A model generated the notes under the pieces. That model did no database searches. It was not told the origin of the DNA and worked only from the letters and a program-made list of their open reading frames with translations. The position numbers were made by a program, and so were the translations under genes. From Kappaphycus alvarezii (lineage: Eukaryota; Rhodophyta; Florideophyceae; Gigartinales; Solieriaceae), in NCBI GenBank assembly GCA_002205965.3, contig NADL03000609.1, positions 62,001 through 126,000 of the forward strand: 64,000 nucleotides of DNA, read 5' to 3'. Each line of letters starts with the position of its first letter. The first letter of the stretch is position 1. Shown piece by piece: positions 9,962-62,388 of this stretch.

Positions 9962-9969
9962 GGAACATA

Positions 9970-11360: not shown

Positions 11361-11559
11361 GCCGCAACTTGAAATTGTGTATACAGTGTATTCCAGAGAA
11401 CCTCCGTTCCGAGGGTATGTACAGTAAGTGGTTACCCTACTTACAGTAGTCCTAGTGTGCGATTGCTCTTAGCAGGAAAATTAAGTATACCAACCCATTC
11501 AAGTAAACCCAATTTAACCCATTGAAACTGTACTACAAGACCTCCCTGTACCGTACATG
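11361..11559. other. Short spacer, no gene seen
   Basis: Between the LINE tail and the LINE-B 3' end. It contains GTGTATACAGTG and TACTTACAGTAG palindrome-like words but no coding signal. Confidence 0.5.
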
Positions 11560-12090: not shown

Positions 12091-12217
12091 ATAAATCGGA
12101 TGCCAAACCCACCGTTTATATTTATTACAATTTCTCCATTTGAGATACCGTAGCTAGAACAAATCGAACCATTTGCTGCTTCACCACAGTTACGTTAGTA
12201 AAATTTCACCCCATCAC

Positions 12218-12268
12218 CATGGTGGTAGATCTTTATGGGTTGTACAATGTCGCACAGAGGCGCCATCA
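12218..12268 (-). mobile_element. LINE-B extreme 3' end
   Basis: About 50 bp matching only the last bases of LINE-B (GGTGGTAGATCTTTAT on the plus strand, then the GCACAGAGGCG word). It is a severely 5'-truncated insertion. Confidence 0.55.
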
Positions 12269-12499
12269 CCATAAATGTTCACCCATCACCAACAACCACA
12301 CAATATAGCCAGGTCACCCGTTAAAGCCGCACTCTTCTTCACTCTGATTTCAAGCTCTACCACCGCCATGATCCACACCATCCTCATTTCCCATTCAGCA
12401 ACACTTCCCCGAAACCTCAAACCATTATTTACCCCTCCTGTATCCCCCTCCCCCTTTACCCTTCCCTACGCACTCATCTTCTTCCTCATCTTTCCCAAC

Positions 12500-13225
12500 C
12501 TCCGCATCACATCCCACTCTCCAAATGAACCTCCTGTACCTATACCCATTCTCGTAGAATCTGCCGCCCTCCTCCTCATAATTTCTGGGCACTTTTGTTT
12601 CGACATTCTCTTCCAACTTTTCGCCCCTCTGGGCATCAACCACTTTGCCATCCCTTTCCCCAGCTCGTACGTCCTATCCCCGACCGCCCTCGATCTCAAA
12701 CACGCAAATCCGTTCATCCTCCTCTCTTGACAGTGCAACTGTCACGGCCTGCGCGGCATCTACCTCTTCACCAAACGCTACCCCTCCCCAACACCCACAG
12801 CCCTATCCTCCCACCTACCTTACCCCGTCCACTACCTCCTCGCGTGCTCCCAGGTCAACTTTGTCGCACACGTCTCGGATCTGGGCCCCCGCTACTTTCG
12901 GTTTCGTTCAATAATGGCCCGTGCAGAAACAGGATTTCAAACTGCATGCCAGCGCGAAGATGGTGCGAATTGTTCTCATTCTGGTGTTTGTGAATTTTCA
13001 GAGAGGAGGATGAAGGAGGTTGTGTGTTTGAGCTCGAGGGCAGTCGGGGATATGATGTAGGAGCTGGAGAAAGGGATGGGCCTACGGTTACTGCCCAGGG
13101 GGGCGAGAAGCTTGAATAGAATGTCGAAAGAGAAGTGCACAGAAATTGAAAGGAGGGGGCTGCAGATTCTATGAGGATGGGGCAGATGCTTCCAGGATGG
13201 GTGTGGGTAATGTGTATCTGGAATG
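12500..13225. repeat. Inverted repeat with coding-like arms
   Basis: The arms, about 12500-12735 and 12998-13225, are reverse complements at roughly 80 percent identity, with about 260 bp between. In the minus strand of the left arm and the plus strand of the right arm the same protein-like reading appears (SRAVGD, then KGM, then LMPRGAKSW or LLPRGARSL). An old sequence was thus duplicated head to head. No family is recognised. The C/T-rich left arm explains the long plus-strand frame over it, which I do not call. Confidence 0.6.
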
Positions 13226-13600
13226 CGAAGTCACGTCTAAAAAGCTATTTTACAACTTGGTGAGGTCCTTTTGCTATACCACAGGCCGCAACGAGTCATT
13301 CCAGACCATTTACCTCACCAACAATCAGCACCGCCACCTGTTTTACCGCGATTTGTACAAGGATTTTTCCAAGGTGGACAAGGAACTTGCAAACTGGGTC
13401 ATCGTCTCCATATCCTTCTACACTAGGCACCACCCAGCAAGCGGCGTGCTGAGCGCACAGCACTTCCTGTGAATAGAGTGGATTTAGGCAGTGACTTCTG
13501 ACGCAAGAAAAATCCTTCCCTTGCTGCACTTACTGCAACCTCTTTTTCTTACCTCGTCGGTGCTATCACTTTATTGAGCAGTTCTTACGCGCAGGTAGCT
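13226..13600. other. Spacer with one unassigned ORF
   Basis: The plus frame 13146-13472 is open for 108 codons and its second half (QTIYLTNNQHRHLFYRDLY) looks protein-like, but it matches no family I know. Nothing else is visible before LINE-A copy 2. Confidence 0.3.
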
Positions 13601-13819
13601 TTTCGACCTTAACGCTCTCCCCTTCCATACTAGACTGCCCTTCTTCAACCTTCATTCTACCACGCTCTGCGCCTGCCCTAGAATCCCTCAGCGTCTTCCC
13701 TGCTACACCTAGCGTGACCAAAGCTTTACTCGACAAGCACCCCAACATGCACCGGATCATGAAACCCGCACGCTACCTCTCTCGACGAAGAACATTCCTC
13801 GGGATTTAGATAATTTACT

Positions 13820-15190
13820 GAAGATGTCTTGCGCGCCATCCAAGCCTCTAAACCGGGTTCCGGTGCTAGTGGCTCGGATTTAAGCCATGCAACCTCGTCA
13901 AACTCTTGCGAGATTCCTCCTCCACGCAGGCGGGATTTCGACAGGCTATTACAAAATTGGTCAATGTGATAGCCTCTGGACGAACTCTCGTTACACTTGC
14001 TCCGTGGATCGCAGGAGCCCACTCACGTCACTGGCAAAAAAGGACGGGCCCCGAGGCCGATTGCGGTCGGAGAGACGCTGTGTAGGCTCTTCTGAAGCTA
14101 TCTACGGCGAAGAGTGCCCAAGAAAGCTGCACCACAATTCCAGCCTCTTCAAGTTGGGTTAGCAACAAGAGCCGGGACGGACACCGTGGTGCACACTACG
14201 CGAAGAATGGTACAAGCATTCGGAAAGAAGGCAGGCTACTCATTGCTCTCTGTCGACCTCAAGAATGCTTTCAACCTCTGCAGCCGATCCTCGTTCCTCC
14301 AATCCGTTAAAGATCTGTGCCCCGAGCTCCTTCCATGGGTGCAGTATTGCTATGCTAAAGAGCCAGCTTATCTATGGGTAGGCTCCAAGACCATGCGGAG
14401 CGTGGTTGGAACCCGACTGGGCGACACCTGGGTGGGCTGTTTTCCAACCTAGTCCTGCATCCCTTCATGCTGAGAATACTGGATTTGCTGTCCTCTAACT
14501 AGGATGGCGTCAGAGAGGTAGGGCAGTTCCTACTACAGCTATGGTATCATGACGACTGATATATCATAGGAAATCCATAAGCAGCTACTGAGAGCAATAG
14601 AAGTCCTCTCGTCGTCATAATCCACAGACCGCGGCCTTCATCTGTCAATGACAAAGTTCAAGGTTCAGTGGCCTACTGCGCTACCGCCGTCCGTCCGTCC
14701 AAGAGCTTTATCTAGCCGGCCTAAAGCAAGTGTATAGCGAAGGAACTCACATTCTTAACGCGCCCAAAGGGTTCGACGGCAGTCATGCAGCGGGACTTCT
14801 ACGAACAAGTCGAGTCCCGCAAACCTTTCCTGGCAACAATTGCCGATCTCGACGACACACAAGTGGCCATTCAACTCCTCCGAAATTGCCCTGGCGTCCG
14901 CAGGGTCGCCTACTTGTTACGCGTCGTTCATCCATCTAGTACAACGAAGGCGCCAAGTACTTCGACGAGATGATCGAGAAACGCTTCCGAACTCTGGCCG
15001 GAGGCGTCCTAGACCGTGAAGTCTTTCGAGAACTCTAGCTCGCAGTGAAACTGCTGAAACCCAAGGAACCATTGCTGGGGATAGGTCTCACGTCGCCGCG
15101 CGACATTTCCGCTGCCGCTTTCCTCCCCCCTTGTGTCGCTGCTGATACCCTCGGCAGCTCCATATTACCAACTTCGGTATGACCGCTGAG
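13820..15190 (+). pseudogene. LINE-A reverse transcriptase, copy 2
   Basis: RT readable across frames: PRPIAVGETLCRL near 14.06 kb; the 14114-14452 frame with FQPLQVGLATRAGTDTVVH, LLSVDLKNAFNLCSR (catalytic Asp) and the altered loop GTRLGDT (motif B Gln lost); then YHDD at 14545-14556 followed at once by a stop; then HILNAPKG and LLRNCPGVRRVAYLLRVV. Frameshifts and nonsense codons show it is dead. The YHDD box agrees with copy 1. Confidence 0.8.
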
Positions 15191-15221
15191 CACATACAAA
15201 GATGCAGCCGACGCCTATAGG

Positions 15222-15960
15222 GTGTGGTCTGCCTCTTGTCCGCCGTGGAAGATAGTTCCCTTCAGCGACTTTTGCTTCAACAACTCACCCTCGCAAAAGA
15301 AGCTGACGGATGCAATTCACGAAACAGCTCAAGAACTCATATCCCCTGGCGACAGCAGGAAACAAGCTTTTCGCTCTTCGATGGGCCTTCCTGGTGCTAA
15401 ACAATGGCTATACTGCCCACCATGCCCGGGCCTTAAGACACAAATTGCTCCTAAAGCTTTCTCCGTCTGGCTCCAATATTATTTCCAGGTACCGTTCTTC
15501 GCCTCCAAAACCTGTGCCTCAAGAACAACAACCGGGAACCCTGGACATCTTCGGCGACCACCTCATGCACTGCTTGCATGGCTGAGAGCGAATCGAGCGT
15601 CACGACTACCAGGCTACGGTCCTCACATCGGACTTCGCAAAGGCAGCGTGACACCCGGTCATGGAGCCCCGTCCCAATGGCCAACACCGCACAAGGCAAG
15701 GCATCAAGGCTACAGGGAGCACCAGAGGGGCTGCTTTCTCGACGTTACATTCGTCAATCCACTTGCTCCCTCCAACATACAAGCCCGTTGCTTCAACCCC
15801 TTGATATCTCTGAGCACCGCCAAAGCGTCAAAGTTCAGGAGGTACAAAGACTTCATCACCACGCATGCCAGGTCCCGACTGATCCAGTGCTGATATCCAC
15901 CCTTGGCGGGTAGCACCCGGACGCAATCACGGTGCTCACAGACGTGGCTATACACGTCAC
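15222..15960 (+). pseudogene. LINE-A REL endonuclease, copy 2
   Basis: The frame opens with VPFSDFCFNN, then LTDAIHETAQ, MGLPGAKQWLYCPPCPG (zinc-module Cys pair), GDHLMHCLHG in a shifted frame, and FLDVTFVNPLAP, which holds the catalytic Asp-Val region. The tail RRYKDFITTHARSRLI continues to about 15890. The R-P-D motif is blurred by indels near 15.68 kb. Homologous positions match copy 1 throughout. Confidence 0.75.
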
Positions 15961-16144
15961 CATATGAGCTATAGAGACCTTTGGGTGGGTGCGATCTTTC
16001 TTTACGCAAAGAGACGCTGCGGAGACGGTTTCGTCCAACGCAGCATACCTTACAGCTGGCATCACAACCAGCCCTGCTCGGTAGAAGAAGAGAGGATTTA
16101 CCAAGCAGGAAAGGGGGGGCTAGCGGCCCTCAAAAGGGAAAAAT

Positions 16145-17125
16145 CTATCCGAGCCAGGAGCGGTGAGTTGTCGTCGGTTGATCGCGACAGAAGTTCGTTG
16201 TTGTGTGAGCGAACTGATAATCGTGAACAAGCGATCGCGCTCGGGCAGGGCTACTGCCTTTCCGTAGAGCGATGTACTCAGCAATTCTGGACAGACCTCG
16301 TTCGGCACCGGGACCGGCAGACCCGTATATATCGAAAGCCATCGGTGGAAGTCGATACGTAGTTCGCGCAGAGGTGGCCATAGCGGAGAGATTTCGCGCG
16401 CTCAGATGCAGTAAGGGCAGCGAGGGGCGTGAATCCGCTGTTGGGCGTATGGAGCGGAGTGGGGGCTGATGACAGTGACGTCGTAGCCCTGCGGGACGGG
16501 AGAGAACTGGACATCATCGATGTAGATGTCGAGGCGGCGGCGGAGTTGGAGGGTCGGGGCAAGTCTTGCGGGAAGGTCCATTCCGGACAGGGCGAATCCC
16601 AATTGATAAGCGTGATACCTCGGAAATGAGGCGGTCGCGAACACAATTGTGGCGCCGAATGGAGCCGTCGGCGCAGGGACAGACAGAGGCGGTGTCCGTA
16701 GGAATCCAGGGTGGGGACAGTGCGGAAGTGGGCGGCGGCGCAATAGGTGCAGGGTTGTGTGCCAGAGAAGATGGGGACACCAAGACGGAGGCAAACCATG
16801 GTTCGCCAGACTTCAGGAGCGGCCCGGGTACCGAGATGGCTCTGCGGGAGGTTGTGAAAGGGACGGGGGGTGGGAAGAAGAGGCGGAAGCTAGGCGGCGG
16901 AGTAGCCGGGAGCCTTCGGGGAGGAGAGGTCGACGGAAGAGAGAAGTTTGGCGCGAAGCGCCTTTGAGATCTCAGCAGTAGCGGTTGTCTGGAAGTCAGA
17001 CAGGCCGGGGGAAGAAGAGGCGCGGAGGCCAGCAAGGACGGCGGGGGGGAGAAACTGTCGGGAGGCTGTATTTGGCCCGGATAGAGGCGAGAGACGTTGA
17101 GATCAAGGGCGAGACGTCGAAGCAA
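16145..17125 (-). pseudogene. LINE-C zinc module, REL endonuclease and tail
   Basis: The minus-strand frames 16799-16278 and 16794-16402 contain CTYCAA, then LDSYGHRLC (zinc module), RLDIYIDD (the place of R-P-D) and GYDVTVISP (catalytic D-V-T-V). The 16381-16145 frame gives the tail YRLPPMAFDIYGSAGPG. The Pro of R-P-D is replaced by Leu, so nuclease function is doubtful. Several frameshifts. Confidence 0.65.
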
Positions 17126-17399
17126 TCACCGAGGAGGCGAAGAAGTGGGTAGGAGGAGAGAACAGAGCCAGCGTAGCATGCCTCTGCGATGGTTTCGGTT
17201 AGGGGCAGTCCGAGCCCTCCCATACGGTGGAAGCTGGGCGGTGAGCCAGGCACTGTCTGGGAGACGACGGTGCATGTCTTCGAACACCCTTCGCATTCCA
17301 GAGTCAAAGGTTTGAGCTCCGGAAAGGTGCTGCGGCGGGGTGCAGCGAAGAACATAGATCAGGCGGCAGGAACTGGCACAGTGTCTCAGTAGTTGGTAG

Positions 17400-18430
17400 C
17401 CCAGTTGAGGGTCATTCAATCCGGAGATGCGCGACCAAACCTCGGAAATGGCATGTACGCGGGAGGCAAGAAAAGACTGGCAGCTTTGAGGGGTGCCGAT
17501 TGGGGATCCGAGGACTGTCACGGAATTGTGGGAACGTATCGTGCAGGGTATGGCACACCGAAGGGACGTGGGGAGGGATCCGGGCCAGGACGCCATAGCG
17601 TTGTTTCACCATGTTGATAGAGAACCCGAGTGGCTTTCCACGATCTGAGATGAAGCGGAGAACCTCAGAAGCGAGGTTGACAGGGACGATGACGGTACCG
17701 TCGTCGGCGAACCAAGCGTTTAGGCGTATGGCGGGAAAGCGTGATGAGAGCTGGGTACCAATGGATGGATGCCAAGGGCAAACAGGATGCTTCCGAGCGG
17801 ATCTCCCTGGTGGGTGCCTGTGCGACTGTGCAGGATGTGTGAACCGAACATGAGCGTGGAATCACCTCCATACAAGTAGTGCACAAACCGGGCGAGGTCG
17901 GGGATATGCTTGGCCGTCTCGAGCAGAATGTTGTGGCGCTCGATTTTGTTGAACGCGTTTGACGCGTCAATTTGAAGGAGGGAAGCTGGCGCTGTCAGGG
18001 CGGGTGGAGAAAAGCCGTGTCGCATGAATGATGGCTTCTGTTCCGTGGCGGACTCCGACGGCGAGCTGGTGAGGAAGGAAATAAGAGACGACGGTGGTTG
18101 TGTAGACAAGCGCCGAACGACGAGGCGGCAGATGAAGCGTCGGAGAACCGTACCCATGGCGATGGGGCGGAGACTGTCGCCGCGGGCCTTTGGGATGCCG
18201 AGTAGGGTAGCCCCGGCGAAGAGATGACGGAGCTCAGTTGGGACGGCCGTCCACGGCAGAGTTCACAAAGACTGTGAGCTGAGACAGGGCGGAGCGATCT
18301 TCGGTATCACCGCCTGGTGCATGGGAGAGGGATTTGAGACGGATGTGCGGAGGCCATCAGGGCCCGGAGAGCTGTGGTGTGGTAGGAAGGCGAGCTGACG
18401 GCGAACCTCGGCCTCCGTAAGTTAGGTAGT
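17400..18430 (-). pseudogene. LINE-C reverse transcriptase
   Basis: On the minus strand: SSPGPDGLR near 18.37 kb, LRPIAMGTVLRRFICRLV (motif 2), LQIDASNAFNKIERH (catalytic Asp), GTHQGDPLGSILFALGIHPL (motif B, intact) and FADDGTVIV at 17700-17711 (motif C). Then VTVLGSPIGTPQ and a helical thumb with LLRHCASSCRLIYVL. Frames change between these motifs, so no full-length product is possible as sequenced, yet every RT active-site motif is preserved. Confidence 0.78.
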
Positions 18431-18589
18431 ACCTCATGACCCGGTCTCATCTCCAGACTCTCCATTACATGTACATGGTAATACAGCATGAAACATGGCC
18501 CAGTGAAAAATGGATAAAATTATTTTCGATGATTAGTAGATACTGAACGCATTAAACTTCTTCTATTCACAATAAATAAAAAAGGGGGA

Positions 18590-19320
18590 AATTTAAGGTG
18601 TTCTTAAACCATGAAAAATATGGTCAGCTGTTCCCTGAGGGATTTCGTGATGTGGGTAAAGGCTTACAACGTAAAGAATTGGCGGGAAGCCGTCAGAACG
18701 ATAGAAAACTGACTGGAGGCCGGCCAACAGGCACGCCGCATCGGACATCGCTACCGCTGCGGCATGAAGCTGTGTTAAGACTTGTTTGACCTTTGCGTAG
18801 GTCTCCCTTGCCCTCTTAGCGACGTTGCGTGCGGCGTTGGTTAACACCGCGTGGGCTTCCGGGTGCCACTCTCCGAGGGTAGAGATAGTGACGGGCACAG
18901 CCTACTTTGGGCGGAAGACAAGATAAAGGACTCGTATCTTCTGTGTTTCGCCGTTATTACTGCGTTAAGCGAGGTGGGAGGGTTGAAAGTCCGTAATCTC
19001 CTATTGAAGGGCGCTAAGTGGTTGACGACGGTGACATCGAAGAAGTCTGTTCCGCCAGATCGTCTCATTGCGCGAATACCAGGTCTTGTGCGGTGGAACC
19101 CTTCTCCTGGCTCGATGACTGGATGTCGCGCAGCTTTCTTGAGATCGCTCGCAATAAATGAGCCTGACGGTCATGTCTTCGCGTCCTTTTGCCCCTGTGC
19201 AAGCAGTGCAACAGATGATCGCAGAAACAGTCGAGAGTTTCGGGGCAGTCCCGCTTGGTGTATGGTGTTTACGGAGGGAAAAGCGGGACTTGGCAGTAGT
19301 ATTGGAACCACGTAAAGAGT
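18590..19320 (-). pseudogene. LINE-A-type REL endonuclease and tail fragment
   Basis: From about 19270 leftward on the minus strand: a zinc module (DCPETLDCFCDHLLHCLH), TDFFDVTVVNHLAPFNRR (catalytic region), RRYESFILSSAQSRL, then ISTLGEWHPEAHAVL and the Ala-rich tail SDAACLLAG. The RT part is missing, so this is a 5'-truncated insertion. Frame changes occur near 19.07 and 18.89 kb. The R-P-D motif is damaged (AQDLVFAQ). Confidence 0.7.
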
Positions 19321-19446
19321 TTCTCTTGGTTCAATGAATACTTAATGCATTAAAATTCTTCTTTTTCTTCTTTCTTCAATGCCGGTTTTTAAGGCCCGGA
19401 GATGGGATGATAAAAATAATTTAAATAAAGGGTTCTCCTTATAGTA

Positions 19447-19890
19447 ATGATTGGTTGTTGTATTGGTACCGATATCGCCGTCGACGTTACTGTTGCCCAC
19501 CCCTCCGCACGCCGCCACATTTCGCCAAGTACGGTTACTGCCGGCGCCGCCACGACACTCGCAAAGCGCGAGAAACATCGTCATTACGACACTTACTGCA
19601 ACCGAAACGATATCCTCCTCTCCCCCGTCGGGATTGATATCTATGGCGCCTTGGGCGACGACGGTAAGGCTTTTTTCCGCCGCCTTGCTTCCTTCGCTGC
19701 TTCCCGTCGCGGTTCCTCCCCTCAACAGGACCTCCGCGACTTCGTTACCCGTTTTGCATTGTCTCCAAATAATGCAGGCGCGACAAGTTTCTACCCGCCG
19801 CCCGCATCCGTAGTTAATTTATGAATACCCTCCGCACGCCTCTGTGCGACATTGTACGACAAATAAAGATCTACCACCACGTATTAGTTG
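19447..19890 (+). mobile_element. LINE-B 3' fragment, copy 2
   Basis: The 19447-19824 frame starts in CIGTDIAVDVTVAHPS, here with the catalytic Asp intact, and ends near the conserved TAATTTATGAATACCCTCCG. The 3' UTR finishes with AATAAAGATCTACCACCACG. It is an inverted near-copy of 11560-11960, more than 90 percent identical by eye. Confidence 0.75.
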
Positions 19891-20122
19891 TAGAGGGGCT
19901 AGTAGGAGGGTAGTATACAGGTAATGTTGAAAAAATAGGTAAAATCGCAGACCGCTCGCCAAATAAAAAAGGATAGGGTGTACAGTAAATGTAGGAAAAA
20001 TACCCAAAATCGCACATTCTGTATTATGACACGCAAGTTCCGTCTAATGTAAGCCCTTTTGAGTACAACCTGCGAAAAATCTGTCAAAAATCCTCAAAAT
20101 GAGAGCCAATCAAAAAATTTAG

Positions 20123-20153
<31 letters not shown>

Positions 20154-20487
20154 AGCGGCAGCAGCAAAGCTCAGTTCTAATTGGCTGTGGTTTTTTAATT
20201 TAGGAAATTTAAATTTCTTTCGACCAATGCGCACCAAGTGCACGCGTGCACTCTGCTGCGGTTAGCTGTAGATTTTTTAATACTCTATTGTCGTTGGCTG
20301 GTGCGATACCAATTTGGGCCAATGGGCTTGTGCCAAGCTGGCATGGCGCCGCCCATTGGCCCCTGGTCTAAGGTATTCCTGACTTAGTTTCCAGTGCACG
20401 GCTACAGTACCTAATTTCTGAACTACAGTACCAAATTTCCCTTTTCTTTCTCCAACGCCCCCACAAAACTCCGATCCATCCGCCAAC
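19891..20487. other. Spacer, no gene apart from the triplet repeat
   Basis: AT-rich up to 20.1 kb, then the triplet repeat, then sequence with ACAGTACC words that leads into the ORF1 5' UTR. No coding signal. Confidence 0.5.
20117..20170. repeat. CAT/CAG trinucleotide repeat
   Basis: Six CAT/ATC triplets followed by about ten CAG/GCA-type triplets. The flanking frame would read poly-Ser then poly-Ala but has no other protein character. Confidence 0.85.
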
Positions 20488-21555
20488 ATGGACAGCGGTG
20501 CCAAGGCGTAAGCCAAGTCATGCCCGACTTTGTGGGCACCAATCGTGAAGGCTCACAAAAGCCCCGAGTAGCTACCGTCCCCTCCACTGTGCGCGATTTC
20601 TGCCGACTGCAGGCAGGATCGCTTGCTCCGAATGCTTCATCGCACGAGGAGACCCCGACGCGTAGGAGCCGCACCCCAAACTGACAGCCCCTGTCGTCCT
20701 GAATGATATGACAGGATTACCTCCAACACTGGCCCCTATGATGTCCACGCTGGCTTTCTCTGCAGGCCCTCCACGCATTGGCGCCCTACCGGCATTGGAG
20801 CCCCGCCGGTATACGAAGACGAGCAAAAAAGCACACATCGGGAGATTGGACAATTGTTGTGCACTACGCAGCGGACTCCAACGACTTTTTAAAAATACTC
20901 CGGGGGATCTCAAACATTTGCGATGGCACCCCTCCCCACCAGCCCGCTTTTTCCAAGCTCAACGCCGAGCTCCCCACAACAGAGTCGAAAGTTGGCACTT
21001 GCGTCGCTGCTGCGCGCGAGCTTGCGTAGCTGAAGACCGTGGCCTCCAAAATAACACTGGAAAACAGGAAAGCCCTGGCGGGAGCAATCACCAGCCTCAT
21101 TGACGCAGCAGCAACAACACTTCCGGAAGGGGATGCTTTGGTTGAAACCTCTATTGCGAAATTCTACGCGGGGTGCGAAATCCTTTCTCCCGCAAAAAAC
21201 TGACTTGCATATGCAGCACACCCCACACGTAGCACCGGCGGCAGACAATCCACCAGCGGTCCACTACAACAACAAAGGTGAGACCCCGGGCAGTGGAGGG
21301 GAAACACTGGAGACCACCACAGTCCATGAAGAACCCGACAGTGCGACGCCACCAGCGACAAACAAAACCACCCTGGCCCCACGCCTACAGAACCCTCACC
21401 TGTCAACCTCAACTTTAGGGTCGCAAAAAACCAGGAAACAGGTGCAGCTAACCTCCTTACGCAACCAAAACCGGACGTTCCTGAAGTCCACTCCACACAC
21501 ATGGGGAAGACCGAACGACGCGCGAAACACACCCGCGCCCTGTCACAACGCATGA
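20488..21555 (+). pseudogene. LINE ORF1, copy 1
   Basis: The ATG at 20488 opens a frame homologous to the better copy at 29034: TGLPPTLAPMM, TLAFSAGPP, HREIGQLL (in place of GDWTIVVHYAAD), SRKLALASLLRA, ITSLIDAAATTL. After it comes a Pro/Thr-rich linker (21230-21555). Frameshifts are numerous. It probably encodes the nucleic-acid-binding first protein of a LINE; no zinc knuckle or RRM is visible, so the function is by position only. A LINE-A endonuclease follows directly at 21673 with RT missing. Confidence 0.6.
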
Positions 21556-21672
21556 AGGAGATGCGGACGGTGAAGACACAACTCGACCTATCCCCCCACT
21601 GGGAAAACGGGCGAGCAAGTCCTCTCGCCATTAGTCCCTCCCTCCTTTTCCCTTCCCCGTAACAATGCCCTG

Positions 21673-22300
21673 ATGTTTCCGACGACTTCCTCCGCACCCA
21701 ACGACCAGTCCACCCCTACCACTTCCCATGCGGCAGTGCAACAGCCGATTCCCAAAGGAGACTGCAGGAGGCAAGCATTCCGCGCATCCATGGGGATTAC
21801 GGGCTCTACAGAGTGGGTATTCTGTGCGTCACACCCTGGACTACAAACGCACATCGAGGCCCGACAATTTTCCCAGTGGCCCCGATATCACTGCCAAGTC
21901 CCGCTGATTGCTCCCGGCACACCATGCCCCGGAGCAAAGTGCCCTCACACACTGGACGTATATGGTGACCACCTCCTCCACTCCCTGCACGGCCCCCACA
22001 GGAGCGTCCGTCACGACCGGCAAGTGAATCTGTTGGCTACGGACCTGGCCAAAGCCGCCCGTCATCCCGTCGTAGAGCCGGGAGAAGGCCTCCACCGTAC
22101 TAGACCAGATATTCGGGCAATGGAAGCCGCGGGGAACTGACTTCTTCGACGTCACCTTTGTCAGTCCTCGCGCCATCGAATAGGAGAGTCAACACGTTCA
22201 ACCCCTTGACCACCCTAACGCAGCCCCAGCAGCGAAGCACAGAAAGTCCCATTCTTTCATTGCTACTTCCTCTCGAGGCAAACTCGTCCCCGTGCCGCGG
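21673..22300 (+). pseudogene. LINE-A REL endonuclease remnant, copy 3
   Basis: The frame opens MFPTTSSAPNDQ, then RQAFRASMGITGSTEWVFC, KCPHTLDVYGDHLLHSLHG, TRPDIRAM and, after a one-base shift near 22.13 kb, TDFFDVTFVSP. One zinc-module Cys is replaced (LLHS for LMHC). The tail begins (SFIATSSRGKLVPVP) but stops at about 22300, where the TACTGTAC palindrome array starts. RT is absent between ORF1 and this domain, an internal deletion. Confidence 0.75.
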
Positions 22301-33046: not shown

Positions 33047-34262
33047 CACCCTCTCGTTCGAAGCCATTGAATCAGTTGCCAGTCCCAAGCTTTTGCAATG
33101 ACGATTGCGCAACTCAGCCTGCAGCCCTTTTGTCAGAACATCGGCCACCATTAATGAGGTTGGGATATACGCCAGCTGAACAATTTTCTTCTGGACATGA
33201 TCACGAACCAAGTGAAAACGAACTTCAATATATTCGTTCTGTCACTGCACAGGTTATCCTTGAAAAGAGCCAACATTCCTCGGTTATCCCCATGGATGAC
33301 GACCGCTTCTCTGATGCGAAGTCTAATTCTATCATTAGTTGTTGTAGCGAGAGAGATTCACGAATAGAATGTGCCATTGCGACATACTCAGCTTCGACTA
33401 TAGACTGCGCGACAATAGATTGTTTCTTAGATCTACAAAAGACTGCAGCACCAGAAAAGAGAAACCTAAATCCCTAGTCGATTTGCGGTCTATCACATCA
33501 CCAGCAAAGTCTGCATCACTGTAAACAACTAGGAGGCCATTGGTTTTCGGTACACAAGTCCGACATACTCCGTCCCTTGAGGTAACGCAGGACCCTCTTT
33601 GCAGCCTTCTAATGTTCATTTACATGCTTGTCCAGGAACCTAGAGAGGTATCCTACCGCAAAGAAATGTTAGGGCGACATGTGTTAGCCAAATGTAGGAG
33701 AACGCCTACCAGCTCACAAGTAAGTTACAGTGCTTAACTGTTCTTCACCATTTGCCGCACGAACCTTGCATTCCGAAGGATGGGTGTTGCCACTGGTGAG
33801 CAATTCTCCATACCAACCGCAGAAGAGCATCCTCAATAAGTGGAGCGTTGTGTATCTTAATAGTGTAGTCACCGCTTCTCAATTACCAAGCCCAAGAACT
33901 TGCTGTCATGAGCTTCTACGCGTAGCTCAACATGCTTTCATAACGCTTCCGCAACCGTTTGCAGGTCTCTGTCGGTTCTTCCGGCAATGAGGACGTCATC
34001 AACATACACCACGAGTAAATCTTCAGCTTGGTCTTATCGTTCACCAGATATAACGATAGATCCGCGGAGGACACAAAAGCACCAAAACTAACAAGAATGG
34101 GGGGCAGAATCTTCCGAAAAGCTCTTGAGACTTGCTTTAAAACAATAAATGGCCTTTCGCAAACGGTTCACTAAGTGTTCTTTGCCTTGGACTTCAAAAC
34201 CGCGGGCTGCTTCATGTACAAGTCTTCATCAAATTTGCCGTAAAGAAACGCAGACTTTATGC
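33023..34262 (-). pseudogene. pol: Copia-2 RT C-terminal part and RNase H
   Basis: RT resumes with SAFLYGKFDEDLYMKQP near 34.24 kb, directly after integrase C-terminal residues. The fingers and first catalytic region are therefore deleted. The active site VYVDDVLIAG lies near 34.0 kb. RNase H follows: VVYSDADFAGDVIDRKSTR near 33.5 kb, and the end ADVLTKGLQAELRNRHC near 33.15 kb. Frameshifts also occur. It cannot encode a working RT. Confidence 0.8.
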
Positions 34263-35875
34263 GGGTAATGGGTTACAAGTTCCGGGTCCACATTTCCAAA
34301 TTCATCCAGAAATTCCAACTCCATCAAATCTTCATCGTGTTCAGCCGAATTCCCTTTAGTGGCATTTGCCAAATCTTCATTATCTACTTTGTTTCCACTT
34401 ATCTCCATATTTTCAATTTCTTCATCATCACTGCCAAAAAAAAAGACTGGTAGTGTCTTCTCTATGATTCTCAGTCGGCCAGCAAGAATCGACTCGTCAA
34501 ACTGAACATCCCTTGACACAGAAAACGTAGCACTGTCGGGATAGTAGATTCTGTAAGAATTTTCTTTCAAACCCGACGAGTATGCCCTTTCGAGCCCTCG
34601 GACCAAACTTTCCATCTCTCTTCTCCTTTGGTATATGCACATAGGCTAATGACCCAAAATTCTAATATGAGATAAGTTGGGACGTGTTCCAAACACTTTC
34701 TCAGCAGTGTACTGCTTTCCTCAGAAGCAGAGGTGTACATACGATTTCGAATATGGTTAGCAGTATTGATAGCCTCAGCCCAAAGCCTGTTCCGTCCAGG
34801 AAATGAAGATAGAGATAGCAACATAGTCCTCGGGCATCATTCAAAGTCCGATTCAATCGTTCTGCTTTTCCATTCGATTCGGGGCTGTACGGTGCCGCCG
34901 GCTGCTTCTTGATGCCTCGTTGAGAAAGCCAGTTCTGCAAAGTCTTCGAGAGGTACTCTTTGGCATTGTCGAACCTGATACTCTTCACATGCCTTTCCAA
35001 TCCGGTTTCTAGCTCAACAATCATATCTTGTACAGCTGCGGGAACTTCAGAACGATTCTGAAGGAACCTCACCATCGAGTAAGCAGTCTTGTCATCGTAC
35101 AGAGTCACATAATACTTAGCACCACCAATGGATTCGATACGCATAGGTCCAACAACATCAGTGTGTACCAAATCACCCGGTTGTCTTGCATGACGATTCA
35201 CTTGAACTGCGGGCCTAGTATCTCGAACAGACTTCGATACCTTGCAGTCGTCGCATATACCCCAATCATAAATATTCTGCAATGGCACACCATTAACAAG
35301 TGGGACAGTCTTACGAATATGGTCTCTGCACGTGTGTTTCAGTCGACGATGCCATATCAATGATTCATTCACCTTTGCCTTGGAAACTAAGGTTGCAGTG
35401 CCCGTACTTCCCGTTGAGGGTTTCAATAACGCTGTGTACAATCCAGTGCGTTCTGACTCAAATCCGAGGAGACAAATGGTGTTCGTCTTCGGATCGGTTA
35501 CAGTACAAGTACCATATCCTTCTCGTTCGTCACTCTGAAACGTTATTACTAGGCCTTTCTTGCGCATACATCCAACAGAGAGAAGATTGAACTTCAAATC
35601 AGGGACATACTGCACATCAGTAAGAGTGACGAGGCTCGTAATACCATAGGCGACAGTGCTTGCATGTATGTTGCCTTGACCATGCACTGATACATGAGTT
35701 CCATCTCCGACTTCAACAGAATCACGATTTGATCTTTCCAACGTCTTAAACAGAGAACGATCATTACACATGTGGGTTGTTGCCCCAGAATCGATGAACC
35801 ATTTTGGATGAGGGTCAGAGAAATCAGGTCCAACAGGAGCGCTCTAGCAACATTTGATGCAGTATCAGTGTCCAA
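34229..35875 (-). pseudogene. pol: Copia-2 protease and integrase
   Basis: The 35771-34701 frame (356 residues) begins just after the protease DSG site, with MCNDRSLF and the flap region YVPDLKFNLLSVG. Then the zinc module (WHRRLKH through CDDCKVSK) and the core: VHTDVVGPM (Asp), IRFDNAKEYLS (Asp) and YSPESNGKAERLN (Glu), all intact. The frame is lost near 34.8 kb. The 34642-34229 frame carries the integrase C-terminal stretch YRIYYPDSATFSVSRDVQF and an acidic linker. Confidence 0.88.
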
Positions 35876-36641
35876 CGTACGATCATCCGACTTTTCCTGC
35901 GGTGGACGGTACTTCTTGCTCTCGGATTCGTATAACAGTTGACCTTCTTGTGTCCAGCTTTACCACAGTAGTAGCATTTGATCTTTGACTTCGTCTTCGG
36001 CTTCTGACGAGTACTTAATGCTCTGGTAACTTCACTGGAAAGTTCAATGCTGGCCAGGTAACTTGCTTCCTTGGAAATAAGAAGCGCAAGAGATTCTGAT
36101 AGAGACTTGTCCATTCCCCTTATAACTTCTGCAGTGACACCAAATTCATCTCGGAGACCACGCAGTAAAGCGCGTAACTGTTCCGCTTCAGAAGTGTTGT
36201 AGCCAATCCCCCAAGTTGGGATTCCAATTCAGAGAGACGAGCACGAAATTCAAGCACACTTTCGCTTGGCTTCATCTTCATGGCCTGATAACGGTCCAAA
36301 AGGCCGTCTCTACTAGCCTGAGATACGGCCTGATGCTGTTCCTTGAGAGTCTTCCACACAAGGGACGGAGCTCGCATATCCATTACAGGGGCTAACAGGA
36401 GTCGTGCACTAGTAAGATTTGTAGACAAGGCTACTTCCTTACGGCGATTAAACTTTCGTAAACTTTCGTCACTTCCTTCAGGTGGAGATTCAGAGCCATC
36501 GACGATGCTCCACAGTCCCTTACTGCGCAGAACAAGTTCAACTTTCCGAGACCAGAGAAAGTAGTTCGTTGACGTAAGCAGCGGTAAACGAATCTTATTA
36601 ACGTCAACCACAGAACTGCGATCATCCCAATCTTCATTCAT
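35824..36641 (-). pseudogene. gag: Copia-2 gag
   Basis: The ATG at 36641 opens NEDWDDRSS; LTSTNYFLWSRKVELVL is the typical copia Gag opening (UBN2-like), then LWSIVDGSE, VWKTLKEQH and FRARLSELESQLGG. A frame change near 36.12 kb leads to 36114-35824, with the zinc knuckle C-Y-Y-C-x4-H-x4-C and a basic region. The start lies about 100 bp after the primer site. Confidence 0.85.
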
Positions 36642-46443: not shown

Positions 46444-47910
46444 TGGGGTAGAATGCCTGCGCAAAATTCTTCTAATGCTGAGCTGGAAGAGATGAATACT
46501 GTGGCTGCCATGGACTTCTCAGATGTCATTCTGACATCCCAGCGACGATTTTCCGTGGTCAGCTTGGCTGGGAGCTGCAGTTATATAAATTTAATATAGT
46601 CGAGTACTCCTCCGGCTAATGTCTACACGCAGCGCTCCATCCTCTCTTTAAATTTCGCAGCGCCATTTGCCGTGCATGACGATGGCAACACGCGTAAAAC
46701 AAAGCAGATATTTCAAACACCGAAACAGCTGCGCAGAAGCTGGGAAGAGATCTGCGTGTCCTCGAGGTTGATGATGGTGTTGGTGAACGGCTTCAAAGAT
46801 TGGATAAGAGCTGTGAAGAGCTTTCTTCCTAACGTAGTTGGAACCAAATGAAGCGTTCAAAACTACTACGCCTTACGTGAAAATCAAGATGAGGTTTTCT
46901 TTTCTGCGCTCTCTGGATTTTACTGTTCAGGAACTGCCGTCTGTATAAGTTATTACAAGGCACGCTCTGCTACATGATTCTTGTTCCTTAAGCGTATAGT
47001 CGTTTCTTCCTAATTGCTGTGCCTGCATACTTTTTTGGGTAACTTGTGGTTCTCCGGAAAACTATGAGATAGATCGCATATATATTCCATGAGTAAAACA
47101 CTCAAACATTTCCCCATCAGCAATCAAAGTATTGTACGGAATCAGTAGGCTATTCTCTGATGGTAGAGGTATTTTGTTCCCAGAAAGGGCTGCGATGGAA
47201 ATCTATCGCTGAGCTACAGAAAGGTTACACTCAGCAAATACTTCTCCCATAGGTTCTGGCCATCGGTCTCTGGGTAGTATGGCCGAGCTGCCTTGTGGGC
47301 TGTATATTTGATAATGGAGAGAGCACTGATGGGAAGGTTTGGCAGGGAGAGAGAAGATGAGAGCTAGAATTGCTGAAAGTCTGCAGAGGCGACTTCAGGG
47401 AACAGGTTTTACAGGGTGAGCAAGTGGGCACGCGAACTAGCTGCAGAATTTACTGAAAGAGCTAAACCATCATATATTAAACGCGGTCTCGGTTCAAAGA
47501 ATTTATAGGATGTGAAGCATTGGTAAAACCACAGTAGAGTGGGCTACGTGATATTCAACTGGTACATGAATACGTATCAGTCCATTTTGGGGTTGACATT
47601 CGCAACAATATTGCTGTAAACCACTATGACAATCCTCTTTAGGATACATACCAGGGCAGTAAACCATAGAGCGAGGTTCAGCGTCTCGTTCGGTGCACAA
47701 TACCAAGGTTTGCAAGGCAAGAGAGAAAACAGAAAAGGGATGCGACTGTGTTAGGACGTAGAAAATGAGTAAGTGACAGAGTACAGTAATGAATTGATGG
47801 GTTGAAGTCGATTAACCCCATTGCACAGTAATAAATAATGTACACGTACGATAGCCTGTGTGCCAATGACTGTTGCACCGAAGTTATACTATACAATGTA
47901 CTGTACTTAT
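46444..47910. other. Intergenic stretch, no gene recognised
   Basis: A short LINE-A 3'-end fragment at 47040-47105 (GGAAAACTATGAGATAGATCG compares with the LINE-A end at 10916). Otherwise no coding signal that I can support. Confidence 0.5.
47040..47105 (+). mobile_element. LINE-A extreme 3' end
   Basis: About 65 bp matching 10905-10970, ending AAACATTTCCCC; a heavily truncated insertion. Confidence 0.55.
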
Positions 47911-48353
47911 TGATAGGGATAAATAGGCGGAGGAATAGATCCTCAGAACCAATTACTCCAAGAAGGAGGTGTTGCAAGCGACAAAAATGCTAATACCACG
48001 GTATAGTGGTGAGAAACAAATGAGGTGGATGAGGAAGACAGTTCAAGGGCAATGGATAAGTATAAAAGGGGCAGGGTCTACCACATATGCTCATTGATCA
48101 GCGTAAAATAAATTTTTCTTGGGTCGGAAGTTGACTCTCAACTTTCTAACTATTTGGGACTGGGCTTGAAGTTTTCTGCTCACTTACTTGACCTCTCAAG
48201 GAGGAAGCAGTTTACTCAGCTTCTATAGACTTTTCGGCTATCGTAAAGTCCCAATAACGCACACTAAATACCATAAAATACACTAAAACAAATCATGTGG
48301 ACGATAGAGACTAGCAATAAGATACTTCCAACAAATATCTAGATCTACTCCTC

Positions 48354-48910
48354 AAAATCTTCATTCTCAAGGCTAGAACCGAGCAAATCCTGCAAAATAT
48401 CCATGCTACTCATACAGTCCACTCATATCCCTTCTAGAGGTTCGCAGCTTCTTGTGGTCTCTCCTAAAATATACAGACCTCTTAAGATATCTTTATGCAC
48501 TTACATGACCGGTACCACTTGGTCCTCCATTCCTAGCTCCCGTTCAGTCTCAAAGTTCTGGGAGCTCCGGTCCAATTCCTGCACTTTCACCTCCTCCCCC
48601 ATGGACCTATCTTCCATCCCATCCCCGTTCTACTCATCCTTCTCCTGAGTCTCGTAAACCAGCTCAGGGCTACGCATTCCTCGAAGGAGTCCCCGCTCTC
48701 CTCATCGACTTTCTCAGAATCATCCTCACTTACCTCCCTCGCCTCTTCTTCTATAAAGAGGAGGCGAACGAACTCGATGATCTTCTCCTTAGTTTGAAGC
48801 CGGAGGTATTCGTCGGCAACGGTTGGACGGTGGTGGCGAGACGGAGGCCATTGATGAGGCTGGAGGGGAGGTTTTTGGAGATAGGACAGAGGGGCGATTT
48901 GACGTCACAT
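48354..48910 (-). pseudogene. LTR-encoded acidic protein, copy 2
   Basis: Recognised by ISKNLPSSLINGLRLA, then DEYLRLQTKEKIIEFVRLLF and EEEAREVSEDDSEKVDEE, then DSFEEC. The C-terminus reads MEDQVVPVM and SSMDILQDLLGSSLEN. The ATG at the conserved place (48910) is followed at once by a stop because of an indel. An upstream ATG at 49005 is in the correct frame, but with unrelated residues. The segment KEKIIEFVRLLF is almost identical to the other copies while flanks have drifted, which suggests past selection on the protein. Confidence 0.68.
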
Positions 48911-49016
48911 TTCTGGAAGAGAGGTGAGCGGGGTTGCGAATGTTGACAGAAAAGGGTAATAAGCTTATGGAATTGTTGGTGGTAGGAGTAATGCTTCAGC
49001 GACAATACTATAGCAC

Positions 49017-49024
49017 TTTAAATA
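49017..49024 (-). promoter_or_regulatory. TATTTAAA promoter of LTR gene, copy 2
   Basis: Same octamer, 107 bp upstream of the conserved start position. Confidence 0.55.
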
Positions 49025-50054
49025 GGGGTATTTCTTCCGTAATCACCACGGTCTTGGTCAAAAAAAGCGAGTTGATCTGCGGCCTTGAATTTGCATGAAT
49101 TCGGGGCATCATAAAAATCTGTGTGATAAAATATCGGAACTGAATTTGGAAGGCGAAGTGACCACGAATTGAAAGGCATCTCTTTGAAGAAGGAGGACCA
49201 AAACTTCAAACATAAAATACAAAGTGGAGTTGTACAGTTAATTTCGATTCATAAAGGAAAAAGATATTTAGAATAGTGTTTTGGAAAGCAAAGGTAGGAC
49301 GATTGGTCAAGGATGAATTTCAATATGCGAAGGGCGCCTTTTTCGTTCCGACACTTATCACGTATGATGGCGCTGCTGTAGATTCCATTTGCAGTATCTT
49401 GACAACATTTCGCTGTGAATAAATATTGAGAACAAAGTTGCACACAAACAATAACTGTTTACGTAAAGAGTACTATGTGTATTACAGTAAATAGGGATAA
49501 TGAATCCTAATAGCATGTATGGATAACTTAAAATTTAGCAGATTGTCCTAGTACCTGGGGATATCCAGATTCACCGCGCTATGCAGAAGCGCATTCCCAC
49601 CGGTGCTTGCATTGATGGGTGCCCTCGGGAGGCGCATGTTGAAGTCGGATATTCCTAGTGGACGAAAATGGATGATGAAGACGGGAAAAGTGGGAAGTAA
49701 TGAAAAAGATAGAACGGCGGATAGGTTAAAAGTGTTTCTCTCCGAACGTCTCGATTTTTCCTCGGTTTTCTTTTCCGTGATTCCATTTCCAAGTACATGT
49801 AAATGTATACTTTTGAAGGGTAAAATCTCATACTCGGTGCGTTCGCGGTCAGGAGATTTGTGAAGAGTGTAGTGAGATTAAATCACCCCTACTAATGTGC
49901 CCGTTCGAAACTCCACCTAACCGAATAACGGACTCCGTTGACTGTATACAGGTGTAAAGAACACAAAAACATCAAATAATCAAGAATAACTGACGGCTTG
50001 TGAATATGACATGACAGATGAGTGGGGAAGGAGGCGGGAGAATAGGCGATGACT

Positions 50055-55770: not shown

Positions 55771-56171
55771 GACTCTGAATTCCCGAGTTGGTAAAGTGGT
55801 AGAGAAGCGGATGCTCGACGAGGGCGACGATCCCAACTTCCTCACAGTGCCGGGCAATAACGTTCCGGAGGACGTGATATCGACGAGTCATACCGTCCTC
55901 GTATGTGGAGGTCAACGCGTGTTGACCGCTTAGATCTAAGATGGGATGCATACTGATGTGCGCAAATGTTGCCAAAAAAATCTAGAAGAGGACCAAATTC
56001 GGATACAGTATCGGAATTTGTAAGTTATTTTTACATTTCTGAATTTGCAAGATATTTTTAATTAGGATGAATGTGACAAATTCATTGGTTGATTTTTTGT
56101 TTCAAGACACGGTGTAATTAATAAATGTCATTAAACGTCCTAGCTCGTCATAATTTTCGAAGACGTCGCAG

Positions 56172-56179
56172 TATTTAAA
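56172..56179 (+). promoter_or_regulatory. TATTTAAA promoter of LTR gene, copy 3
   Basis: 76 bp upstream of the TTAAC-ATG start at 56255. Confidence 0.55.
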
Positions 56180-56254
56180 GTTCGAAATCGAAGTCGTTGA
56201 GGCAAACCCCCCGCCATCAACTACTCCATCGGCTCACCCCTTTTGGCCCTTAAC

Positions 56255-56840
56255 ATGACCAACCTCCGCCCTTCCCGCTCCATCACCAAGTCATCCAAGG
56301 CCTTCGTCCACTCAACGTTCTGGCCCTGCGATCAAATGGTCCTACCGACTACGACGATTACTGTAGAAGATTGGACCGGGGACGTGTTCGGGAGTGGGTC
56401 CGCCGTAACTGCTTCGAGCAGGCAGAAGAGGCAGAGGAGGAGGAGGAGTGAGAAGAGAACGAAGTGGATGAAGAGGAGGATGAGGAGGACTGGGTGGACC
56501 CCTGGGAGCCACTAGCTTACAACGGTGGGGAGCTCCCATGGAGAACGAAGGGAAGACTGAGAGAGTAATTTTGATCCATGACTTTTCTGACAAAGATGAA
56601 GAGAAGTTTGAAGAGGAGGATGAGTAGGATGAGGGCAAGGGAGACATGGAAAGCCTGGAACACTGGGGGGGGCCGAAAAATATGGACCCGGCTCTGGAAC
56701 CGGATGGGGGTATCTTCAGTGGTCAAGATGTTTCGCAGGGGGCAATGGAGAACTCTAAGCCGTTGGTGGATATTTGTGGGGACTGCTTGGGTGTAATGTA
56801 TAATTTGGAAGAACTTTTTTGCTCTCATGTAGAGGACTAA
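56255..56840 (+). pseudogene. LTR-encoded acidic protein, copy 3
   Basis: The ATG at 56255 opens MTNLRPSRSITK, as in copy 4 (MTNLRP). The middle is decayed; a helix corresponding to IIEFVR is not readable. Acidic stretches (DKDEEKFEEEDE near 56.61 kb) and the C-terminus are clear in the 56646-56840 frame: ALEPDGGIFSGQDVSQG, then VDICGDCLG and LEELFCSHVED before TAA. Stops and indels separate the two ends. Oldest-looking of the four copies. Confidence 0.65.
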
Positions 56841-56971
56841 GATATTTAGGAAAGAATCTAGATATTTATGCTGATAGTATCTGCTGTTAGTCTTTCTCGT
56901 TCACACGATTCCATTTGATGCATTTTCATGGTTCTTGGTATGTTTCTTTGAACTTTACGGTTAGCCAAAAG

Positions 56972-56983
56972 GTCTATATAAGC
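56972..56983 (+). promoter_or_regulatory. Solo LTR genomic TATA box
   Basis: GTCTATATAAGC, identical to the other Ty3 LTRs; still able to drive transcription into flanking DNA in principle. Confidence 0.55.
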
Positions 56984-57293
56984 GGAGTAAACTGATTCTT
57001 CTTGTGGAAGTCAAGCAAGTTGGGAGACAACTTGAAGTCAAGTCCTGAGTAGTAGGAAGCTGACATTCAACTTCAGACCAAGGAAAAAGTTTTCTTACGC
57101 TGGTCGCAGAGCATCAGTTGTAGACCCTGCCCCTTCTATACTTGTTTTTAGCCCTCTTAAATGTCTTCCTTATCCACTACATTTCTTTCGTTCAAATAGA
57201 ACACAGTACTACTTTTTTCGCTTGCAATAATTCGTTCTTGGGGTAATTGGTTCTGAGTATCTCTTTTCCCGACGTTTTACCTCTATCACATAC

Positions 57294-60852: not shown

Positions 60853-61199
60853 CGCGTGCTGATAGGAATTGATTTTTTTTGTCGCTGTCATCTACAGACA
60901 TTTAGTTTACTGTACTCCCTCTCCTTGTCCAAATGCTTATAGTTCCGGTCCTTCCTCGTCGTCCTCACTGAGCCTCGCTTATCATTACTGCGGTCCTCTC
61001 CAAACTTACTTCCATTATATCTAGATATTTCTACACTGCATGTACCTCTCTGAATCGATCCTGAATCAAGTTCTTTTCCCTTTTTGCTTATCTTCTCCTC
61101 CAAATTTGTTTTTTCATTGAAAGGGCACAAATGCACTACTACAAATCCTTACAGATTTATTTTACCTATTCCTAATCTATTGAACCTGCCACGGGAACC

Positions 61200-61207
61200 T
61201 ATTTAAA
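61200..61207 (+). promoter_or_regulatory. TATTTAAA promoter of LTR gene, copy 4
   Basis: Placed 107 bp before the ATG at 61314; the flanking GGGAACCTATTTAAACCCC is nearly identical to the left LTR. Confidence 0.6.
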
Positions 61208-61313
61208 CCCCTTTATTCCAAGTTTAAACGTCCCCGATTATTTTGCACATCATCCCTGTCCCCAACACACATAAAACACCTTCCATTACCTCCCATTCCC
61301 CAACCCTACCACA

Positions 61314-61859
61314 ATGACCAATCTACGCCCCTTGAAAGTCATTTCCAAAAATCGCCATCCCCCGCCCCCTAATCTCTGTTCCCCTACTCCCTTTAGAACC
61401 TACTGACCGCGAGGACTACCTGTGCCGGCAAAGAAAGAAAAAAGTTATCGAATTTGTGCGTCTCCTCATTATTGAGGATGAGGTGGAGGAGGTAGTAAGG
61501 GGCGGGAGTGGGACATCGAGGAGGGAGCTGATGAGACCTTCGAGGAGTGGCTGGCCCCTGAGTTGGTCTACGAGGTTAATGAAGAGGAGGAAGGGAAGAA
61601 AAAGAGGAGGATGAGGAGGCGAGGACGAGTTGGATGAGGAACAAGGGGCATGGAAAGTGTTGACTGGTGGGGCTTGGACTGGAAAGTATGGAACGAGTGT
61701 CCGACGATGGAACCGGATGGAGATATCTTTAGTAGTCTAGATATCTCCCAGGGGGAAATAGAGAGTTGTGAGCCATTCGCAGATATTTGTGGGGACTGCT
61801 TGGACAGCATGGATATTTTAGAGGAGTTGTTTGGATCTGATTTAGAGAATGGGAAATAA
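61314..61859 (+). pseudogene. LTR-encoded acidic protein, copy 4
   Basis: The ATG at 61314 opens MTNLRPLKVISKNRH. An in-frame stop follows near 61406 after an indel. In the next frame TDREDYLCRQRKKKVIEFVR and LLIIEDEVEEVV, then (another frame) ETFEEWLAPELVYEVNEEEE, a Lys/Arg/Glu tract, and an intact C-terminus from the ATG at 61650: VDWWGLDWKVWNE, MEPDGDIFSSLDISQGEIES, FADICGDCLD, SMDILEELFGSDLENGK, stop at 61859. The best C-terminal half of the family. At about 180-195 residues the full protein would be small. Localisation and partners unknown. Confidence 0.7.
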
Positions 61860-61983
61860 GAGGACCAAATTAATTGTTAGTTTCTTAAGTATTTTTGCTT
61901 AGAGTATATTGTCCACACAAAGTATTTTTATGCATTTCTTAGTATCTTCTGTAGTTTTGTTCGGACTTTAGGGGTAGCCAAAA

Positions 61984-61995
61984 GTCTATATAAGC
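61984..61995 (+). promoter_or_regulatory. Ty3 element B genomic TATA box
   Basis: GTCTATATAAGC, 125 bp after the stop of the LTR gene and about 400 bp before gag. Confidence 0.6.
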
Positions 61996-62028
61996 TGAGT
62001 AAACTGCTTCCTCATGGAGAGGTCAAGC

Positions 62029-62086
62029 AAGTTGGCAGACAACTTCAAGCCAAGTCCCGAGTAGTAGGAAGTTGAGAGTCAACTTC
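62029..62086 (+). promoter_or_regulatory. Paired hairpins in the Ty3 LTR transcript leader
   Basis: Two inverted repeats follow the TATA box: AAGTTG-GCAGA-CAACTT (62029-62045) and GAAGTTGA-GAG-TCAACTTC (62068-62086). Both are kept in the LTRs at 1 kb and 7.7 kb. The first is broken in the 48-kb copy and the second is altered in the 57-kb copy. In RNA they would form two stem-loops near the 5' end. A packaging or termination role is possible but unproven. Confidence 0.5.
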
Positions 62087-62388
62087 AGACCCAAGAAAAC
62101 TTTTTCTTACGCTAGTCGCAGAGCGTCGGTGGTAGACCCTGCCCCTTTTATACTTGCTTGTAGCTTCTCTCAACTCTCTTCTATATACACTCCCTTTTGT
62201 TCGTTCAACAATACCACGGCAGCACTTTTGTCGCTCGCAACACCTCCTTCTCAGGGTAATTGGTTCTGAGGATCTCTCCCCCGCCGATTTACCCCTATCA
62301 TTTGGTACTCTTGTGGAGGGGGTTGCACCCGAGGTATTCGAGTTGAGCAGTAGTAAGGAACACTTCGGGGGATTTCTTTTCTGTAATC

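Follow-up and report, generated by a model that had tools for sequence, protein, structure and literature searches.

A probable protein-coding gene within the long terminal repeats of a Ty3/gypsy retrotransposon family of Kappaphycus alvarezii

The window, which is the whole 64,000-nt stretch of K. alvarezii DNA analysed here (C605:62001-126000), contains five LTRs of one Ty3 family. Four of the five carry homologous parts of a single gene, equally placed and in sense orientation: those at 1-1419 (-), 47911-49353 (-), 55954-57288 (+) and 60880-62300 (+). This bears out the proposal of an earlier, sequence-only reading that the same gene occupies the same place in these four LTRs. The fifth LTR (A5), at 7495-8211 (-), is 717 bp long; it lacks the gene and a TATTTAAA box found 5' of the gene elsewhere, and retains a TATATAAG box.

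The LTR at 55954-57288 (type 2) is a solo LTR, as had been recognized from its perfect 5-bp target site duplication (TSD), CATAC, at 55949-55953 and 57289-57293; it also has TG...CA ends. It contains a TATTTAAA box at 56172-56179 (+), 5' of the gene start, the gene at 56255-56840 (+) and a TATATAAG box, the putative genomic-RNA promoter (U3/R), at 56975-56982 (+). The claim that this LTR holds a gene copy is correct as to location, but the copy itself is broken, with frame shifts and stops between the ATG at 56255 and the stop at 56838-56840. The LTR at 47911-49353 (type B), not previously called solo, is a second solo LTR, with TG...CA ends and a perfect 5-bp TSD, CTTAT, at 47906-47910 and 49354-49358. 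Its gene has lost the ATG and is represented by an in-frame N-domain piece (48668-48826, -) and a C-terminal piece (48345-48437, -), with a TATTTAAA box at 49017-49024 (-). Since two solo LTRs in the window have perfect TSDs, the gene lies inside the LTR.

A 99% copy of the 55954 LTR with the same flanks is present on contig C831 (425669-537762), together with a 93% copy with a similar flank. Among the matches listed, the type B piece also has a 100% copy on C831. The matches between C831 and the window (C605) represent a segmental duplication or a second haplotype.

The other two gene-bearing LTRs belong to long elements, A and C. The 3' LTR of element A (A3; type 1) occupies 1-1419 (-) and is truncated by the window start, with 67 bases more outside. 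Its gene, at 369-964 (-), has an open 103-aa N part (656-964) and a C-terminal part (369-452) in a different frame, and a TATTTAAA box lies at 1072-1079 (-). The 5' LTR of element C (C5), at 60880-62300 (+), is type-1-like in its C domain and R/U5 and diverged in its N domain; a TATTTAAA box is located at 61200-61207 (+), and the gene at 61314-61859 (+), with an ATG at 61314 and a stop at 61859, is frame broken. An acidic low-complexity tract, described previously, is indeed present, but its reading frame differs between copies.

The internal region of element A (1420-7494, -) encodes gag with zinc knuckles, protease, reverse transcriptase and RNase H. Pfam matches to RVT_1, RT_RNaseH and an aspartyl protease are above cut-off; the CCHC knuckles were recognized by eye only. 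In elements of this family a primer-binding site, TTTGGTAC, follows the 5' LTR and a polypurine tract, GAGAAAGGGGGCG, precedes the 3' LTR; a tRNA scan found no primer. A 398-aa ORF at 1934-3130 has no Pfam match, and its start resembles an integrase end by eye only. Downstream of RNase H, a domain of ~108 residues occurs twice in element A (1494-1826, -, and within 1937-3130, -; 38% identical), and it likewise has no Pfam match. Elsewhere in the window, inspection by eye of the ORF list alone reveals Copia-like gag/integrase ORFs at 34229-36641 (-) and, at 8827-22140, several ORFs of LINE-like character that contain a ...TLDVxGDHLxH motif.

The genome searched comprises 336 Mb in 884 contigs. 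The 103-aa open part (656-964) has at least 150 matches in it, 90-100% identical, and by our own count of the table 133 of the 150 listed are free of internal stops. Visual inspection shows no fewer than 24 sets of matches that share a contig and strand and lie 6.6-7.7 kb apart; 20 of these were fetched as LTR pairs, giving 40 type-1 LTRs. Alignment of pair members indicates an LTR length of ~1440-1600 bp. Most start with TGTAATACAA after the tract GAGAAAGGGGGCG and end ...CTATCA before TTTGGTACTC. An exact 5-bp TSD flanks 12 of the 20 pairs, and the remaining eight may be worn or recombined. A genome-wide check of the LTR ends against the gene, as the sequence-only reading had proposed, finds the gene enclosed by the LTR ends in those element pairs that have TSDs. 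Within-pair mismatches number 1-12 per 1.45-1.6 kb (18 pairs whose best piece covers almost the full LTR), and the type-1 family is therefore young.

Of the 40 type-1 LTRs, 39 have the gene start (L073 does not), and 10 have an ORF of 180-206 aa that begins at the ATG and ends at the usual stop. In three pairs (L049/L050, L057/L058 and L059/L060) the ORF is complete in both LTRs, in agreement with the expectation of two gene copies per full element. Eight of the 10 full ORFs were inspected, and four of these eight read the tract partly or wholly outside the acidic frame. The length and frame of the GAG-rich tract vary even between both LTRs of one element (for example L041/L042 and L061/L062), which may reflect either slippage or assembly error.

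The lineage of the 55954 LTR, type 2, has at least 150 genome matches, most of which share 67-86% identity with the query. TSDs were found in 11 of 21 type-2 rows; L079 and L080 are a single locus that was assembled twice, and L002 duplicates the 55954 solo LTR of the window. These 11 rows, the two solo LTRs of the window and the 12 type-1 pairs have the TG...CA ends and 5-bp TSDs characteristic of a Ty3/gypsy LTR retrotransposon. In type 2, L089 contains an uninterrupted 199-aa ORF with the start MTNLRP, and L082 is also open, with the start MANLRL. The type B piece, used as query, led to seven more copies, with open ORFs in L099, L101, L103, L104 and L105; in L100 and L102 the usual end is not reached in one frame. 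Open frames of 180-215 codons occur in five sequence lineages.

The gene is located wholly in U3, between the TATTTAAA and TATATAAG boxes. TATTTAAA lies 114-117 bases 5' of the ATG in 39 of the 40 type-1 LTRs (L073 lacks both this box and the start of the gene) and 78-86 bases 5' of the ATG in 17 of the 21 type-2 LTRs. The distance from TATATAAG to the LTR end is 306-320 bases in 39 of the 40 type-1 LTRs. When the first 320 bp of L089 were base-shuffled, TATTTAAA appeared in 38 of 2000 shuffles. In the comparisons made, the U3 5' of the gene gives no DNA alignment between type 1 and type 2, and the kept TATTTAAA box stands out for this reason. The near-fixed distance of TATTTAAA from the ATG in both types, and its absence from the gene-less LTR, support the earlier suggestion of a promoter-like box belonging to the gene itself.

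Coding selection was assessed in 36 pairs of nine intact ORFs; the 143 codon columns used, of 232 in all, exclude the acidic tract. In 28 of the 36 pairs pN/pS was below that of all 300 neutral simulations; in these, dN/dS was 0.11-0.44 where computable, and third positions were the most changed. The other eight comprise one identical pair, six very close pairs, none decisive taken singly (8 to 48 of ~300 simulations each), and a type-2 pair (1 of 300). In a separate alignment the corresponding figures were 0 of 1000 simulations for four type 1-type 2 pairs and 59 of 1000 within type 2. The intact ORFs of different lineages are thus under purifying selection in a shared frame, the second check that had been proposed. 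The window pieces as they stand give dN/dS of 0.12-0.52 where computable and non-zero. Among the in-frame pieces of A3, B and C5, third positions account for 13/24, 17/31 and 20/34 of the differences. Comparisons with the 55954 copy show a weaker excess, and a binomial test on 32-codon window pieces, weak alone, gives p < 0.05 in two of six pairs.

Variants within each type were also compared. Five of the six type-1 N-domain variants common to at least two copies are at third positions (39 LTRs), as is one of two in the C domain. Within 20 type-2 LTRs there is no codon-position bias (singletons 80, 77 and 79; shared variants 26, 30 and 28 at the three positions), and variants in at least four copies (5, 7 and 12) lean to third positions with p = 0.2. 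The even spread within type 2 indicates that copies are not kept up after insertion. We read this as selection acting on the transposing lineages, while each copy decays freely once inserted. Location, layout, coding capacity and purifying selection between lineages are all evident at the level of sequence, and it appears nearly certain that the LTR contains a selected coding gene.

The predicted product is ~180-215 residues long. Its N domain contains basic residues and, at low confidence, a predicted helix; it also has an acidic tract, and its C end is both acidic and hydrophobic. Among ~5.8 billion proteins, no homologue at E <= 0.01 was found for the 103-aa part (candidates of ~57-180 aa only) or for residues 1-95 of a 204-aa ORF. 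A Pfam search with the LTR protein gave nothing at cut-off, and a PDB search gave two matches under E 0.05, at residues 86-138 and 40-136; in both searches the best matches lay in or across the acidic tract. Scans of viral contigs with gag and with the LTR protein gave no useful lead. AlphaFold placed helices at residues 32-37, 41-56, 76-79 and 82-99 of the window pieces with low confidence (mean pLDDT 58.8, pTM 0.20).

The motif VIVISDSSDEDEE, or a near form, is present in 17 of the 21 type-2 rows by pattern and in L007 by eye, and also in the 3' LTR of element C. It is absent from the type B and C5 LTRs of the window, from type 1 and from the intact ORFs of other lineages. We take this type-2 motif to resemble a SUMO-interaction motif. 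In type 1 the C end reads DICGDCLDSMDILEELFGSDLE. The last 30 residues contain nine D/E, nine hydrophobic and one basic residue in L057 (type 1), and six, 11 and one, respectively, in L082 (type 2); the C end presumably resembles an acidic activation domain.

A young gene-less sister LTR family was missed by the earlier reading. The 717-bp LTR (7495-8211) has at least 40 copies including itself, 98-100% identical over 716-717 of 717 bases; since this holds for 40 of the 40 matches listed, A5 is not a one-off deletion. Two element-spaced gene-less pairs (L095-L098; on C593 and C543) have LTRs 99.2% and 99.7% alike, with three mismatches and one, respectively. The C593 pair is flanked by a GCCCC duplication; no target duplication was found for the C543 pair. 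The internal DNA of these two elements was compared at both ends only: over the first 1.4-1.5 kb, identity is 99.5-99.7% with element A and 98.2-98.3% with the type-1 element of L057, and over the last 0.2-0.35 kb it is 96.4-97.7% with element A. No similarity was detected between the U3 of the gene-less elements and the type-1 U3. The ends of the 717-bp LTR match type 2 (82-86%), with ~100 unrelated bases in place of the gene region.

The type 1 and type 2 genes differ with a pS of about 0.75. Because they parted long before, loss of the gene in the gene-less lineage would be the simpler reading. A single kind of internal region appears to be combined with either of two different U3 modules, so that, judging from the internal ends of two elements, the U3 with its gene would constitute a swappable module. 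The existence of a young gene-less family with near-identical internal ends means that not every recently active element requires the gene in cis. Scattered single-base shifts break the gag frame in most type-1 and both gene-less elements read; these may be assembly errors, and they were set aside as a mark of autonomy.

Element A has a gene-less 5' LTR, a gene-bearing 3' LTR and unlike outer flanks. In element C (60880 to C605:131771), the 5' LTR has a type-1-like end, and the 3' LTR has a type-1-like start and a type-2-like gene. As the LTRs of each element differ in U3 and the outer flanks mismatch, neither is a plain insertion, and both long elements of the window look like recombinants.

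On balance, the most probable explanation of these observations is an accessory gene situated wholly in the LTR U3 of a Ty3/gypsy family, the leading candidate for its product being a nuclear transcriptional regulator or anti-silencing factor. That it regulates the LTR promoters of its own family is our leading guess and a tentative one. It is based on residue composition and the SUMO-like motif, both judged against the general character of activation domains and SUMO-interaction motifs. The upstream TATTTAAA box would drive a short mRNA whose 3' end is the poly(A) site of R, and any LTR that is intact, whether 5', 3' or solo, could act as a freestanding copy of the gene. The protein would work in trans at the LTR promoters of the family, and sister elements lacking the gene could draw on it in the same manner. 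Because the gene sits in U3, it would be replaced at each U3 exchange. Several findings count against this explanation: no homologue or domain from the searches described supports a function, the fold prediction is poor, a young gene-less family has near-identical internal ends, type-2 copies are not kept up after insertion, eight of the 36 ORF pairs fail to beat all simulations, only 10 of the 40 type-1 LTRs have the full ORF, and type 1, its near lineages and type B are without the SUMO-like motif.

An accessory gene in the LTR could instead serve in counter-defence or encode a protein associated with particles; an RNA-silencing suppressor and a decoy for histones or SUMO are examples. We consider this possible, if rather unlikely. 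An orphan acidic protein under purifying selection would suit such a role, as would the SUMO-interaction-like motif of 17 of the 21 type-2 rows and L007, but the motif is missing from the other lineages and nothing ties the LTR protein to a role of this kind. It is improbable that the ORF is a passenger gene fragment, riding in U3 and useless to the element. Many gene copies are frame-broken, and the gene-less elements with near-identical internal ends are also young and numerous, as a passenger would allow; purifying selection in several separate lineages is already strongly against it, and the gene, its start and the TATTTAAA box have been kept while the U3 5' of the gene did not align between types 1 and 2. 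A chance open frame, or a conserved RNA or DNA element that is no protein gene, is very improbable: low-complexity GAG repeats do give long open frames in two frames, but the selection signal was measured outside the acidic tract (143 of 232 columns), and the shared type-1 variants fall at third positions (N domain 5/6, C domain 1/2). Misdrawn LTR ends, with the gene really between pol and the 3' LTR, can be dismissed, as the solo LTRs have TSDs and the gene occurs in 5' LTRs upstream of the primer-binding site; nothing was found in favour of this placement.

Returning to an accessory gene with a regulatory product, a further reading is speculative and somewhat doubtful: the promoter and gene may form a cassette in U3 that serves as the trans-acting regulator of the family, with a sister lineage of gene-less U3 and the same gag-pol living on the product in trans. 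If this were true, an intact solo LTR would be a freestanding regulator gene, and regulation and transposition would be separately inherited modules. With a selected gene in U3, recombination to a solo LTR need not be the dead end for which it is usually taken, as an entire gene can survive it. Young families that differ in having or lacking the gene, on a near-identical internal region, offer a natural comparison for its role.

Accessory genes of LTR retrotransposons described previously, in the portions of the literature available, sit between the LTRs. No gene inside a Ty3 LTR was found among the titles and abstract openings listed for open-licence papers. In this literature, the phrase for LTR ORFs led to mouse mammary tumour virus (MMTV) and otherwise to non-LTR elements. 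Phrases for LTR-located ORFs were absent from the available part of one review (PMC7264820).

The plant aORFs, Retand and Retrosat2 ORF0 are similar in being extra orphan ORFs in LTR retrotransposons, some of them thought to be regulatory, according to the excerpts available. In contrast to the gene described here, they lie in the internal region, either upstream of gag-pol (PMC3485330, in part) or between pol and the 3' LTR (PMC11963269, in part). The crapaud element of Podospora resembles the present family in that one element has several diverged 5' LTR halves, and crapaud elements with unlike 5' and 3' LTRs have been attributed to gene conversion or ectopic recombination; the available part of that paper differs in making no mention of a gene in the variable LTR part (PMC10787394).

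The superantigen parallel drawn in the sequence-only reading holds for layout but not for protein similarity, as no superantigen is among the PDB and Pfam matches of the LTR protein. The MMTV sag product is a membrane glycoprotein. MMTV is a mouse retrovirus, unlike the Ty3 element described here, whose LTR protein is an acidic orphan. In foamy viruses the internal promoter and the tas gene are not confined to the LTR. Foamy virus tas is alike in combining a regulatory protein with an internal promoter additional to the LTR one (PMC7828637, in part). The likeness to MMTV sag is one of arrangement, with coding sequence within U3 and a U3 promoter (P2) apart from the main one, and the available text also describes Naf, a product of the sag ORF, as a negative regulator of transcription (PMC9412291).
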